From: Thermoplasmata archaeon
Lineage (GTDB): Archaea; Thermoplasmatota; Thermoplasmata; Thermoplasmatales; Thermoplasmataceae
Assembly: GCA_021816745.1 (NCBI GenBank)
Contig: JAKAWY010000001.1
Span: 1 to 64,000 of the forward strand
Reading direction: 5' to 3'
Length of the DNA: 64,000 nt
Made by a program: the position numbers and the translations under genes. This document shows positions 39,579-48,025 of this stretch, piece by piece; position 1 is the stretch's first letter; the number at the start of each line of letters is the position of its first letter. A model generated the notes under the pieces. That model ran no database searches. It saw nothing but the letters and a program-made list of their open reading frames with translations, and had not been told where the DNA came from.

Positions 39579-40508
39579 TCATTCCCACTCTATGGTTCCC
39601 GGTGGTTTGTTTGTAACGTCATAGACAACCCTGTTCACTTCAGGCAACTCGTTTGTTATCCTTGTAGAAATCTCTTCCAGAAGATCCCAGTCCGGCCTTG
39701 AAAAGTTTGCAGACATGGCATCTGAAGTGTCAACGCATCTTATGGCTATGGTGGCCCCATAGGATCTCTTGTCGCCATGAACTCCGGTGGTTTTGATGGG
39801 CAGGTATATTGCGAAAAACTGCCATGGCCTCTTTTCCCGATCCATGGAAGATTCTATGGTTTTCTCAACAATTTCAGTGGCACTCTTCAGAATTTCAAGC
39901 CTTTCCCTGGTAACTTCCCCCAGGATTCTCACTGCAAGCCCCGGTCCTGGAAATGGCTGAAGATATGGATCCAGCCCCACTTCTGCGCTAAGCTGCCTCA
40001 CTTCATCCTTGTACAGATCCCTCAGGGGTTCCACAAGTTTCAGGTTCATATTCTCCGGGAGGCCCCCGACGTTATGATGGGATTTGATGACGTCCCTGTT
40101 CTTTCCTCCGCTCTCAATCCAGTCAGGTGCTATGGTTCCCTGAAGCAGGAATTCTGCCTTGGATTCAATGGCTTCCTTTTCGAATATCCTGATGAAGGTT
40201 TCACCAATGATCTTCCTTTTTGTTTCGGGATCTGTGACATTCTCAAGATTTTTAATAAAAGTTTCAGAGGCATCGATAATCTTCCCTTTGATGCCGAATT
40301 TGTTGAACATTTCCCGAACCCGTTCCCTTTCACCTTTTCTGATCAGGCCCGTGTCGATAAAAATTGTGTGGATTTTGTCCCCGGCAATTCTGTTGCTCAT
40401 TACAGCAAGTACAGAACTGTCTGTTCCTCCGGAACAGGCCAGTATAGCCTTTCCCTTCAGTCCACGCTTTATGTTCTCAATTATTTCCTCATAAAGTTTT
40501 GATGCCAT
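39579..40508 (-). CDS. guaAb: GMP synthase subunit B (ATP-pyrophosphatase)
   Basis: This 309-residue protein is the ATP-PPase half of GMP synthase, which is split in archaea. The PP-loop is SGGTDSS (26-32), with T where many have [59 protein letters not shown] and the terminal PPGTIEWE are signatures. It adenylates XMP, and ammonia comes from the separate GuaAa glutaminase, not in the window. It is third in a unit with a RAM-domain gene and a membrane protein. Confidence 0.95.
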
Positions 40509-41157: not shown

Positions 41158-42423
41158 TCAATGGATCTCATCCATCCTCTTCTCCTCCTGATTTCCACTG
41201 GATAAATCCCTAACAGTTACCTTTCCGGTTTCCATTTCCTTGGGCCCTACAATTATAGCATGGGTATAGAGTCCCGATGAGGCACTTTTAAGTGAATTGG
41301 ACAGACTCTTTACATTGTTCATCGTAGAACAGTCCACTCCTGATTTTCTCAGGGATCCTGCAAGCTCCAGTGCATATTTCCTGGTTTCTTCCTTCATCGG
41401 GATAATCAGGTACCTGGATCTTTCCCTGGGAATAACCCAGAGTTCTTTTTCCCTGAGCAGGTTTTCCAGGACAGCGTCACCCATTCCGAATCCCACTGCA
41501 GCCATATCCTGGCCGGAAATCAGTCCTGTGAGATTGTCGTACCTGCCTCCTCCAAAAATAGACCTGTACTTGCCATTGATGTCGAATCCTTCGAACACGA
41601 TCCCTGTGTAGTAAGTCAATCCCCTGACGGTTGCAGGATCGAACACCAGGTTGCTGTACCCCCATGATTCCAGTATTCGGATGGTTTCATCGATTCCCTT
41701 TACCAGTTCTGACAGATCAAGTGAAGGGAAGTGTTTGTGTATGGTTTTGGCAATTTCACTGGCCTTGGACTTATCCGATAGAAATTCTATGAGCAAACCT
41801 GCATTTTTGGATGATCCAAGGTTTTGCGTGAGTTCTTCCAACATATTTTCCCTGGTCTCTTTCCTGTACCTGTCAATTATATTCAGGCCTGCAACAAGAT
41901 CCTTTGTCCCAAGCATATTCATGATTTTCTCCATGATCTGTCTGTGATTTATCCTGACTTCAAAAGAGCCTTTGAGGCCCAGGCTTTCCAGTGTTTCACA
42001 TGCCAGCCCGATTATTTCAGCATCTGCTTCAGGTGAACTGTCCCCGAATATATCCGCATTGAACTGGGAATGTTCCCTTGTTCTTCCGGATTGTGGCTCC
42101 TCATATCTCCATAGCTTTGGAATGCTGTACCATTTCACCGGCCTAGGAAGATCTTTTCTTGAACCCATGAGCCTTACTGTGGAAGGTGTTGCCTCTGGAA
42201 TCAATGTCACCTCCCTTTTACCTTTATCGGTAAAGCTGTATGTCTGGGAAAGCAATTCATCCCCTGACTTGGTCCTGAACAGATCAAGAAGTTCTAGGCT
42301 CGGGTAATCAATTGGAAGGAACCCGAAAAGGCGTGCACATTTCCTCATGGTGCCGAACAGATTTTCCCTGACCAGCATATCCTCTGGATAGAAATCCCTG
42401 AAACCTTTTATTTTCTCAATCAA
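41158..42423 (-). CDS. hisS: histidyl-tRNA synthetase
   Basis: The conserved start is TTG at 42423 (LIEKIKGFRDFYPEDMLVRE), giving 421 residues, the normal class II HisRS length. Motif 2 is WRYEEPQSGRTREHSQFNADI-like KLWRYEEPQSGRTREHSQFN, the histidine-A loop is GLTYYTGIVFEG, and motif 3 is AAVGFGMGDAVLE. The C-terminal anticodon-binding domain starts near RSRYLIIP. The open frame continues upstream to 42735 but only as an antisense image of the divergent fur gene. No Shine-Dalgarno is seen, so a leaderless mRNA starting near TTG is likely. Confidence 0.93.
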   Translation of the reverse strand: MIEKIKGFRDFYPEDMLVRENLFGTMRKCARLFGFLPIDYPSLELLDLFRTKSGDELLSQTYSFTDKGKREVTLIPEATPSTVRLMGSRKDLPRPVKWYSIPKLWRYEEPQSGRTREHSQFNADIFGDSSPEADAEIIGLACETLESLGLKGSFEVRINHRQIMEKIMNMLGTKDLVAGLNIIDRYRKETRENMLEELTQNLGSSKNAGLLIEFLSDKSKASEIAKTIHKHFPSLDLSELVKGIDETIRILESWGYSNLVFDPATVRGLTYYTGIVFEGFDINGKYRSIFGGGRYDNLTGLISGQDMAAVGFGMGDAVLENLLREKELWVIPRERSRYLIIPMKEETRKYALELAGSLRKSGVDCSTMNNVKSLSNSLKSASSGLYTHAIIVGPKEMETGKVTVRDLSSGNQEEKRMDEIH

Positions 42424-42475
42424 ATTTGCACCTATTAATGGGAAACACTTAATAATAATTAAAATATGGCTATTC

Positions 42476-42889
42476 ATGGAAACAGTGGAGCAAACACTGA
42501 AAAGCTCCGGAATGAAGGTAACCCCACAGAGAGTAATGCTCCTGAAATACATCAAGGAAAACCCAGGCGAGCATCTTTCTGCTGAGTCCATACACGAGCA
42601 CGTGAAAAGTATAACCCCCAACATCCCGGCAGCCACAGTATACAACATATTGAAGGCGCTTTCCGATAAAGGGATTATAAACTTCATAGAGCTCGAAGGA
42701 AAAGCATTGTACGAGTCAAGAACTGATCCGCACATAAATTTTATGTGCCAGGCATGCGGAAAAATAGATGATTATGAAATTTCTGGAAGCATGGAGCCAA
42801 TTCTCTCCAATGTCAAAGGAATCATAACCAATTCTACGGTTCTGCTGAAGGGCATATGTTCATCGTGTACTAAATCCGCCGAACAGTGA
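42476..42889 (+). CDS. Fur-family metalloregulator
   Basis: This 137-residue regulator has a winged helix (KVTPQRVMLLKYIKENPGEH, PAATVYNILKALSDKGI) and a dimerisation domain with the histidine-bearing TDPHINFMCQ. The structural zinc cysteines are C91, C94, C128 and C131. PerR, Fur, Zur and Mur subtypes cannot be separated safely; the short DPHxNF motif resembles PerR-like proteins. It diverges from hisS with 52 bp between. Its 3' end overlaps the folP-like gene by 30 bp in antisense. Confidence 0.9.
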   Translation: METVEQTLKSSGMKVTPQRVMLLKYIKENPGEHLSAESIHEHVKSITPNIPAATVYNILKALSDKGIINFIELEGKALYESRTDPHINFMCQACGKIDDYEISGSMEPILSNVKGIITNSTVLLKGICSSCTKSAEQ

Positions 42890-44386: not shown

Positions 44387-46159
44387 ATGCATATTGCAGT
44401 TCTAGACAAGGAAAAGTGCCATCCAAAAAAATGCAACCATGAATGCGAGGCATACTGCCCTCCCGTGAGATCCGGAACCCCCACCATTGCTTTTAACGAT
44501 GAGGATATATTCCCGGTTATTACTGAAAACCTCTGTATTGGCTGCGGCATATGCATCAACCGGTGCCCTTTCGGTGCAATCAAGATTGTTACTGTTCCAG
44601 ATGAGCTGGACAAGGAAGTTGTGCACAGATACGGGGAGAATGCATTCCGTTTATACTCAATACCCATGCCCTCCGGGGGAATCACTGCAATTCTTGGGCC
44701 AAATGCCATGGGAAAAACTACCACCATGAATATTCTCAGTGGTGTAATTGTGCCGAATTTTGGTGAATATGAATCCACCCCTGACAGGGAGAGTGTGGTT
44801 AACAGGTATTCAAACAGCATACTTGGGCAGTATTTCAGGGACGTTTATGATAAAACAAAAGAAGTGGTGCTAAAGAGCCAGTTTGTGGATCAGATACCAC
44901 GAGTGGCTAAGGGAACCATTAAGGATATTATGCTAAAATCCGACAGGAATGGAAAATTCGATGAGATTGTGGCACAGCTTTCCATGGAGAATTCCATAGG
45001 AAAAGATGTGGGAAGCGCTTCCGGCGGTGAACTGCAGAAACTTGCCATTGCCACTGCCCTGCTGAAGGATGGTGACATTTACCTTATCGATGAAGTTTCT
45101 TCCTACCTGGATATATCAGAGAGACTCAGGGTTGCATCCATACTGATGGATCTTTCAAGAAAGGGAAAAACAGTTTTTGTTGTGGAACATGATCTTGCAA
45201 TTCTTGACTGGATATCAGACCAGATTCACCTGGTCTACGGATCACCGGGAGTATATGGAGTTATCAGCCCCCAGAAAACCCCTTCAAAGGCTGTGAACCA
45301 GTTCCTGGAAGGATATCTCAAGGAAGAAAATGTCAGGATCAGGAAAGAGAAGATTGTTTTTGAGCAGAAAGGGGCCACCAGGAGATCTGTCTCCCCCACC
45401 ATAGTGGAATGGAGTGGGATAAAGAAAACCCTGGGAGATTTCAGGATTAATGCACCGGGTGGAAAACTTGAAATTGGTTCAGTCACCGGAGTATTAGGTA
45501 AAAATGCACTGGGTAAAAGTACCTTCACCAAGATACTGGCAGGTGTCCTTGAAACTGATGAGGGCATTGTTGATCCAAAGTTGAAAATAGCCTACAAACC
45601 ACAGTATATTTCCACAGATTTTGATGGAACCTCTGAAGATCTCATATACAGGACTCTGAAAGACAGGGCAGGGGAAACATGGGTCAAGAATGAATTGTTC
45701 AGGCCACTGGATGTTGAACCCCTTTTCATGAAGGAAGTGAAAAACCTTTCAGGAGGAGAACTCCAGAGGCTGTCCATAGCCATTACCCTTGCCACAGAAG
45801 CAGATCTTTACCTTCTGGATGAACCCTCAGCAAACCTTGACAGTTCAGCCAGGATGGAGGTTGCAAAGATCATAAGAAGAACCATGGAAAACAGGAAGAA
45901 AACCGCCATGATTGTGGATCACGACATATATTTCATCGACATAATCTCTGATTTCCTTCTGGTGTTCATGGGAACACAGGGGCTGGAAGGAACTGCCTAC
46001 GGGCCCATGACCATGAGGGAGGGGATGAACATGTTCCTTAAAGACGCAGGAGTCACCTTCAGAAGGGATCACAATACAAGAAGGCCCAGGATAAACAAGA
46101 CTGGAAGTGGGCTTGATCGGGAACAGAGGAATTCAGGCGAATATTACTATTCAGAATAG
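44387..46159 (+). CDS. abce1: ribosome recycling ATPase ABCE1/Rli1
   Basis: The 590-residue protein has the ABCE1 order: a ferredoxin-like region (CHPKKCNHECEAYCP at 11-25 and CIGCGICINRCP at 50-61), then two ABC domains. The first Walker A is GPNAMGKTT (104-112) with signature SASGGELQKL and VSSYLD; the second is GKNALGKST with LSGGELQRLS and LDEPSANLD. ABCE1 splits ribosomes after termination or Pelota rescue. All eight cysteines and both ATP sites look functional. The TgtA gene follows with no gap. Confidence 0.96.
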   Translation: MHIAVLDKEKCHPKKCNHECEAYCPPVRSGTPTIAFNDEDIFPVITENLCIGCGICINRCPFGAIKIVTVPDELDKEVVHRYGENAFRLYSIPMPSGGITAILGPNAMGKTTTMNILSGVIVPNFGEYESTPDRESVVNRYSNSILGQYFRDVYDKTKEVVLKSQFVDQIPRVAKGTIKDIMLKSDRNGKFDEIVAQLSMENSIGKDVGSASGGELQKLAIATALLKDGDIYLIDEVSSYLDISERLRVASILMDLSRKGKTVFVVEHDLAILDWISDQIHLVYGSPGVYGVISPQKTPSKAVNQFLEGYLKEENVRIRKEKIVFEQKGATRRSVSPTIVEWSGIKKTLGDFRINAPGGKLEIGSVTGVLGKNALGKSTFTKILAGVLETDEGIVDPKLKIAYKPQYISTDFDGTSEDLIYRTLKDRAGETWVKNELFRPLDVEPLFMKEVKNLSGGELQRLSIAITLATEADLYLLDEPSANLDSSARMEVAKIIRRTMENRKKTAMIVDHDIYFIDIISDFLLVFMGTQGLEGTAYGPMTMREGMNMFLKDAGVTFRRDHNTRRPRINKTGSGLDREQRNSGEYYYSE

Positions 46160-48025
46160 GTGTTGTTATTGGGAAAAGAAAGAATTACCCTGGAAATCCT
46201 CGGAAGAGAGGGACTGGCGAGAACTGGAAGATTTCACACTCCACATGGAGTTGTGATGACTCCCAACATTATGCCTGTGATCAATCCAAACATCAGGACT
46301 CTTTCCATGGATCAGATGAAAAAAGCAGGAACCACCTGCCTCATAACAAACAGCTACATTATCAGGAGAAATGCTGATCTGCGGGAAAAGGCACTGAAGG
46401 ACGGCCTGCACAGCCTGATTGGATTTGATGGCCCCATCATGACTGATTCAGGCACATTCCAGAGTTACGTTTACGGTGACGTGGAATTCCAGAACAGGGA
46501 TACCGTTGAATTCCAGTTGTCTGTGGGAAGTGACATTTCCACCATTCTTGACATATTCTCCACCCCTGATGATTCCAGGGATAAGGCTGCTGATGCAGTC
46601 AGGGTTACAGCCGAAAGATTCCATGAAGTTGAGGATCTGGCAGAAACAAATGATCTCTCCGGGCCCATACAAGGTTCAATTTATCCTGAACTCAGGGAGG
46701 AAAGTGCCAGGATCATGTCATCCAGCGGTGCATCATATTTGCCCATTGGTGGTGTAGTCCCACTCCTGGAACAGTACCGATACGCAGAACTTGTGGACAT
46801 CATCATGTCTGCAAAGCTGAATTCCAATTTTTCAAAACCTATTCACCTCTTTGGAGGCGGACATCCCATGTTCATGGGAATGGCTGTACTGCTTGGAGTG
46901 GATATGTTTGATTCTGCATCCTACGTGAAATATGCCAAGGACGGCAGGATGCTATACCCCGAAGGAACCAGGGATCTGAAGGATATCATGGAATTGCCCT
47001 ACTGGTCACCTTTGAGAGACAGGTATACGGCGGAGGAACTAAGGAGGGAGGGAGAAGAGAAAAGAAAATCCCTGCTGGCAGAACATAACCTTTATGCCAT
47101 ATTCATGGAAATTTCCGAGATTCGGGAAAGAATCCATGAACAGACACTCTGGCAGTATGTGGAATCCAGGGCAAGATCACATCCTTCCCTGTTTAACGCC
47201 TTCAAAAGAATACTGGAATATTCTGGAAAAATGCAGGATTATCTTGAACTTTACCGTAAACCGCCATTCATGGGCTTTGACAATCTTTCCATGAAGAGCC
47301 CCTATGCAGAAAGGCTGAAATCCCTGGAGATCAGGCCTGACTCGGTGGATGCATCCTATTACTATTCCCAGGGAACCGGCATGTCCAAAAAGTTTCTGGA
47401 TGAATATTATGAGAACTCTGACAACAATTACCATTTCACATGGGGGGAACTGGAAATCCCTGTGGAGATGGAGGAATCGTATCCCGTACAGCAGGCCATA
47501 ATGGATGGTTTTCCTTCCATCAGGGTACAGAGGCCCACATTAATAAATTCAGGGCATGCAAGGAATTTCAACCTTGAAAAAATAAGATTCCTTGCAGATT
47601 TCCAGTTCGGCAAGAATTCGGGAAAAGCCCTCTTCCCTGATGACAGCCAGATTACCGTATCCAGGAGCACCGGCAGGATAAGAACCGTCAGCCTTGAAGG
47701 AAAGATACTGGCCACCATGAGGGTTCATGATGGTTATCTGGCCCTGACCATGGAGGGTGGAGAAAGAATAAGGAAGTCATCCCCTGAAATGAAGAACAGG
47801 GTGATGGTGACAAAGGAGAGTGCAGAATTCAATTCCCAGGGGAAAAGTGTATTCTTCAATTTTATCAAAGAGTGCGATCCAGGCATAATCCCCTATAATG
47901 ACGTTCTAGTGGTGGATCCTGATGATGTGCTGGTGGCAGTGGGAAGGCCCCTGGTCTCGGGAAAGGAAATGATGCAGTACAGGAAAGGCGTTGCTGTTTC
48001 CATAAACCACCACCTTAAGCCATGA
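46160..48025 (+). CDS. tgtA: archaeosine tRNA-guanine transglycosylase TgtA, zinc cysteines missing
   Basis: The 621-residue protein has a TIM-barrel transglycosylase domain with the catalytic region GPIMTDSGTFQSYVYGD (91-107) and GGVVPLLEQYRYAELV, a middle region, and a C-terminal PUA domain ending VVDPDDVLVAVGRPLVSG. It swaps guanine-15 of tRNA for preQ0 in archaeosine synthesis. Archaeal TgtA usually has a CxCxxC zinc knuckle followed by histidine; here that stretch (279-290) reads LPYWSPLRDRYT, so all three cysteines are gone while H309 in LLAEHNLY remains. The start may be TTG 46169 rather than GTG 46160. Confidence 0.92.
   Translation: MLLLGKERITLEILGREGLARTGRFHTPHGVVMTPNIMPVINPNIRTLSMDQMKKAGTTCLITNSYIIRRNADLREKALKDGLHSLIGFDGPIMTDSGTFQSYVYGDVEFQNRDTVEFQLSVGSDISTILDIFSTPDDSRDKAADAVRVTAERFHEVEDLAETNDLSGPIQGSIYPELREESARIMSSSGASYLPIGGVVPLLEQYRYAELVDIIMSAKLNSNFSKPIHLFGGGHPMFMGMAVLLGVDMFDSASYVKYAKDGRMLYPEGTRDLKDIMELPYWSPLRDRYTAEELRREGEEKRKSLLAEHNLYAIFMEISEIRERIHEQTLWQYVESRARSHPSLFNAFKRILEYSGKMQDYLELYRKPPFMGFDNLSMKSPYAERLKSLEIRPDSVDASYYYSQGTGMSKKFLDEYYENSDNNYHFTWGELEIPVEMEESYPVQQAIMDGFPSIRVQRPTLINSGHARNFNLEKIRFLADFQFGKNSGKALFPDDSQITVSRSTGRIRTVSLEGKILATMRVHDGYLALTMEGGERIRKSSPEMKNRVMVTKESAEFNSQGKSVFFNFIKECDPGIIPYNDVLVVDPDDVLVAVGRPLVSGKEMMQYRKGVAVSINHHLKP

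Follow-up and report, generated by a model that had tools for sequence, protein, structure and literature searches.

Can an archaeosine tRNA-guanine transglycosylase (TgtA, or ArcTGT) work without the cysteines that bind its structural zinc? The question is raised by a gene in a 64,000-nucleotide stretch of DNA from a Thermoplasmata archaeon (the window), whose product reads ELPYWSPLRDRYT at residues 278-290 (positions 46991-47029). Mutating cysteines in E. coli TGT reportedly costs the enzyme both its zinc and its activity. In the available portions of the respective papers, work on QTRT1 presents the zinc-binding domain as a hallmark of TGTs (PMC6165067), and part of the dimer interface of bacterial TGT is placed in this domain (PMC4425180). 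Literature searches on zinc in ArcTGT, judged by titles and abstract openings, listed no paper describing a zinc-less ArcTGT.

The tgtA ORF (Table 1) encodes 621 amino acids in an intact frame, without stop or frameshift, and its product scored 499.1 bits against the equivalog profile TIGR00432, above the cut-off of 350, with P. horikoshii ArcTGT (1iq8) as its best solved relative (phmmer, E 5.5e-127). Of the features that mark an ArcTGT, two catalytic Asp residues, C2 and PUA domains and the ArcTGT fold were found; of the two aspartates, D251 is presumably the nucleophile, a role assigned by homology. Scores against the ArcS profiles were below cut-off (NF040592, 134.2 of 440 bits; NF053620, 27.5 of 600 bits), and a search of the organism's own assembly, which is 79% complete, found no second TgtA copy. 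Comparison with genus mates gave dN/dS values of 0.06-0.14 in three of seven pairs (dS 2.1-3.2); in the other four dS was saturated, and the three computable pairs point to purifying selection on tgtA. We assign the ORF as a full-length ArcTGT that, from homology and by analogy with the T. acidophilum enzyme, most likely exchanges G15 for preQ0.

Table 1. Coordinates of tgtA, its domains and key residues, and the adjoining gene, in window positions
Feature	Position	Strand	Evidence
ABCE1/RLI-type ABC ATPase, directly upstream, abuts tgtA	44387..46159	+	Fer4_RLI, Fer4, ABC_tran
tgtA, archaeosine tRNA-guanine transglycosylase (TgtA/ArcTGT)	46160..48025	+	TIGR00432, Pfam, 1iq8; GTG is the predicted start
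TGT catalytic domain, residues 20-342	46217..47185	+	PF01702, 246.8 bits
Catalytic Asp D96 of DSGTFQ	46445..46447	+	Alignment; D in all order rows covering the column
Asp D251 of FDSASY	46910..46912	+	D in 107/107 order rows
Rebuilt zinc-knuckle loop P280-T290, PYWSPLRDRYT vs PCSCPVCSKYT	46997..47029	+	Gapless phmmer alignment to 1iq8; order-wide loss; loop composition; pLDDT 97-98
Y281, first zinc-Cys column	47000..47002	+	106 order rows: Y 30, P 17, E 12, R 10, F 8, others; outside the order C 77/77, L185 excluded
S283, second zinc-Cys column	47006..47008	+	106 order rows: S 104, T 2; outside the order C 77/77, L185 excluded
R286, third zinc-Cys column	47015..47017	+	104 order rows: Y 28, F 27, L 17, R 8, N 7, others; outside the order C 77/77, L185 excluded
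H309, fourth zinc ligand of canonical TGTs, retained	47084..47086	+	H in 106/106 order rows covering the column
C2 domain (TGT_C2), residues 474-542	47579..47785	+	PF14810, 84.1 bits, above cut-off
PUA domain, residues 547-619	47798..48016	+	PF01472, 58.2 bits, above cut-off

An earlier note on this DNA had read the protein as an archaeal TgtA in which the three zinc cysteines are replaced by Y, S and R, with the following histidine and the catalytic DSGTFQ kept. TIGR00432, Pfam and 1iq8 agree on TgtA, and the alignment to 1iq8 bears out the rest, placing the replacements at Y281, S283 and R286 and retaining H309 and D96, as well as D251. Of the CxCxxC and His ligands by which a canonical zinc-type TGT is recognized, H309 alone is retained. 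We take this ligand set to characterize the canonical form of TGT and not ArcTGT in general, since the triplet is missing throughout the order to which the experimentally identified T. acidophilum enzyme belongs. The two findings that the note had named as contrary to its reading, cysteines supplied by another loop and absence of transglycosylase activity, did not appear: the whole protein has two cysteines, C60 and C572, neither at a position where Cys is conserved across the order, which rules out a substitute from another loop, and the available text of PMC11298593 reports the T. acidophilum enzyme as experimentally identified and active. The intact frame, together with 106 other order rows that lack the triplet, rules out a frameshift or assembly error in the window.

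The distribution of the triplet was followed by TIGR00432 profile searches of 300 genomes of the class, 117 of the order, 31 of family f13 and 155 of the phylum. The order sample, which covered every listed place, yielded 107 TgtA rows from 105 genomes, among them genomes that we take to be T. acidophilum DSM 1728, T. volcanium GSS1 and Aciduliprofundum boonei T469. Left out of the order and class counts were the window itself (L001), named contigs duplicating other rows (L060-L077, all zinc-less), and repeat stretches and ArcS loci (L204-L213). Alignment across the Thermoplasmatales, the check that had been proposed at the outset, found the Cys triplet in none of the 107 rows of the GTDB order: 101 lack Cys at all three columns, three carry a single Cys, each at the third column (L059, L145 and L146), and three are gapped or cut (L167 and L183 missing the third column, L181 cut off). 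Outside the order, CxCxxC was present in 77 of 78 class rows, a count and not a frequency, the rows outside the order being top-scoring or hand-picked by family; the exception, L185 of family f7, has siblings (L184 and L186) that carry CxCxxC. The triplet state changes twice on a FastTree tree of 179 rows built from an alignment that left out the loop. In these alignments the cysteine loss is order-wide, not local to one genome, and we infer that the triplet was lost in an ancestor of the order.

The replacement residues form a recognizable pattern. In family f1, that of the window gene, all 72 rows have P280, W282 and S283 unchanged and 70 have P284, giving a loop of the form P-x-W-S-P, which becomes mostly x-x-S-P across the order, where the S283 column admits only Ser and Thr, P284 is Pro in 100 of 106 rows, and columns 281 and 286 are freely variable. 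Such conservation fits a turn that its backbone and side-chain packing keep in place rather than a newly built metal site. An AlphaFold2 model computed from 96 aligned rows had a mean pLDDT of 95.3, with residues 271-290 at 97-98, although the program knows the zinc-TGT fold and may draw the loop as though zinc were present. From conservation and model, we read the loop as rebuilt and not decayed. Away from the loop, the order-specific aromatics Y193, Y208, F238 and Y333 may help to fill the vacated space.

The known relatives of the enzyme fall on both sides of this change. The model superposed on P. horikoshii ArcTGT (PDB 1iq8, 1j2b) over 566 residues at an rmsd of 2.1 Å (Z 52.0), and the two share the TGT-C2-PUA order and the catalytic Asp residues, but the P. 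horikoshii enzyme has its own CxCxxC...H zinc knuckle where the window enzyme has Y, S and R. Queuine TGTs (Z. mobilis TGT and human QTRT1) share the TIM barrel and the catalytic Asp pair, with 333-348 residues superposing at Z about 40, whereas they have the zinc domain, act at another tRNA position and lack C2 and PUA. The closest experimental counterpart is the ArcTGT of T. acidophilum, reportedly the subject of work by Kawamura et al. in 2016, which belongs to the same order and family as the window enzyme but to another genus; the genome that we take to be T. acidophilum DSM 1728 encodes the same kind of zinc-less loop, PQWSPLYDRYT. In the part of PMC11298593 available, this ArcTGT is described as insoluble in E. 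coli, which may hint at lower stability, and archaeosine is given at positions 13 and 15 of T. acidophilum tRNA-Leu.

Beyond what the earlier note had claimed, the loss recurs elsewhere in the phylum. Outside the class, 66 further TgtA rows comprised 51 with all three Cys and 15 without; one of the 51, L219, comes from genome G003, where it is an additional and more distant TGT, and without it the count is 50 of 65. The 15 fall in families f48 (6/6 rows), f56 (5/5), f38 (2/2), f53 (1/1) and f60 (1/2), so that none of the 11 rows of f48 and f56 has the triplet. A search for rhodopsin (PF01036) was positive in six of seven f48 and three of seven f56 genomes (9/14) and in none of ten other genomes queried; rhodopsin and genome sizes suggest that f48 and f56 are marine group II, presumably lineages of neutral-pH marine habitats. 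All 126 rows with the full triplet keep the zinc His, as do 112 of the 119 zinc-less rows. The seven replacements fall on the zinc-less side without exception, as expected if the His were freed from its role as ligand. In these seven rows (L298, L299, L303 and L318-L321, of f48 and f53) the His is Y, F or A, the three Cys are also replaced, and both catalytic Asp are kept.

The number of losses was counted on trees of thinned row sets (140 rows for a quick tree, 58 for a careful tree and 58 for clade tests), with the loop columns excluded. Six state changes were needed on both the 140-row quick tree and the 58-row careful tree, a count that leans on poorly supported deep branches and on taxonomy. 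A single origin for all zinc-less rows was rejected (p-AU 1.5e-27). Constraining the order and f48/f56 to one clade was not rejected (p-AU 0.967), and the constrained tree outscored the quick tree by 34.8 log units; taxonomy codes place the order and f48/f56 in different classes, and therefore two losses or a transfer are required, a gene transfer between them being possible. L185 (f7), L303 (f53) and L313 (f60) are each the sole row behind one of the six events, and assembly errors may be among these three. The zinc loop of L185 (G003:C37) is proline-rich, PSPSPSPPRPTPTP, with a C-rich coding run and a Pro-Ser-Thr stretch, and would reflect either an assembly error or a recent, independent loss.

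We consider it very probable that the window TgtA is a functional ArcTGT that folds without structural zinc. That the zinc-free form works follows from the experimental identification of T. acidophilum ArcTGT in an order that lacks the triplet throughout. After loss of CxCxxC in an ancestor of the order, the knuckle would have been re-stabilised by a proline/aromatic/serine turn; in catalysis, guanosine would flip into the TIM barrel, D251 would attack the ribose and guanine would leave, after which preQ0 would be inserted at G15, and possibly also at G13 of tRNA-Leu, and ArcS and RaSEA would complete archaeosine. The genome carries the partners for these last steps: ArcS at G000:C50 (640.6 bits, cut-off 600), separate from tgtA, and at G000:C14 a gene of TIGR01210, which we take to be the RaSEA-type family. 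QueC was found in eight of 11 other genus members searched (E below 1e-70) and was not found in the organism's own 79% complete assembly beyond a weak profile match to a GMP synthase-type gene in the window (39579-40508, minus strand), which is not QueC. Of the 41 distinct tRNAs, which were read from 42 loci, 40 have G15; G13 occurs in four of five tRNA-Leu genes and in tRNA-Cys. Two tRNA genes of the same genome, tRNA-Asn (L246) and tRNA-Met (L252), were 103 and 94 bases long by ARAGORN, suggesting introns.

An order without zinc cysteines, one member of which has been experimentally identified, suggests that the metal is dispensable for the chemistry; a role of zinc in folding, dimer formation or tRNA docking becomes directly testable by loop swaps, and annotation rules that expect four ligands could misjudge zinc-less tgtA genes. 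A far broader proposition would hold that structural zinc is dispensable in archaeal TGTs and was lost several times in Thermoplasmatota, in acidophiles and in presumably zinc-poor surface-ocean lineages, with the loop rebuilt differently each time and the Thermoplasmatales loop also widening the target to G13 and G15; that all of this holds jointly seems to us unlikely.

The order is largely acidophilic, and its TgtA proteins are poor in cysteine (0-7 in 99 order rows over 550 amino acids vs 4-16 in 77 outside), as would suit a purge of Cys where zinc-thiolate sites fail in acidophiles. However, the adjoining ABCE1 served as a control for retained metal-binding Cys, and none of its eight Fe-S cysteines is missing from any of the 46 rows aligned at these positions, another 11 rows being gapped there. 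The Fur-type regulator and Pus10 of the window retain CxxC motifs, and the triplet is absent throughout the presumably marine f48 and f56. Because these rhodopsin-bearing families are zinc-less as well, acid is unlikely to be a general cause, and the acid or metal stress put forward in the earlier note is unsupported as such; as an explanation for the window enzyme we think it improbable. There is a similarly small chance that the Cys loss itself relaxed tRNA recognition, letting the enzyme exchange G13 besides G15. In favour of this, T. acidophilum tRNA-Leu carries archaeosine at both positions and, in the excerpts of the two papers available, ArcTGT serves both (PMC6313347, PMC11298593), and four of the five tRNA-Leu genes of the genome analysed here have G13; changed substrate handling is possible by analogy with this known G13 and G15 specificity.

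A substitute metal site, in which H309 and acidic or His side chains would hold a metal, could explain why all 106 order rows that cover the H309 column have His there, as do all 126 rows with the triplet, and why E293 is conserved at 94% in the order vs 52% outside. Yet the first and third Cys columns vary freely (Y, P, F, L, A), the order has no new conserved Cys or His column, and seven of 119 zinc-less rows, all outside the order, replace the His too, leaving this reading decidedly unlikely. Least probable, with only a slight chance, is a degenerate or repurposed paralogue without base exchange. Its model would be ArcS (archaeosine synthase alpha), a TGT relative in the same pathway that lost base exchange and has the C2/PUA region in common with TgtA, and the best stretch of the 134-bit NF040592 match indeed lies in the C2/PUA part. 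That score is far below the cut-off of 440, however, D96 and D251 are retained, ArcS has its own gene elsewhere in the genome, the assembly yielded no other TgtA, and the T. acidophilum ArcTGT is active, as given in the accessible part of PMC11298593.

The surroundings of tgtA are also shared within the family. At 60 f1 loci, examined with flanks of up to 3 kb, some of them cut by contig ends, ABCE1 was present in 47 and a DUF6015-type neighbour in 45, and the tgtA cluster is therefore conserved in the family. Farther upstream, the HisRS ORF as listed (41158-42735, minus strand) overlaps the Fur-type gene on the opposite strand (42476-42889, plus strand); the true HisRS start is probably internal, because the Pfam match begins only at residue 111.
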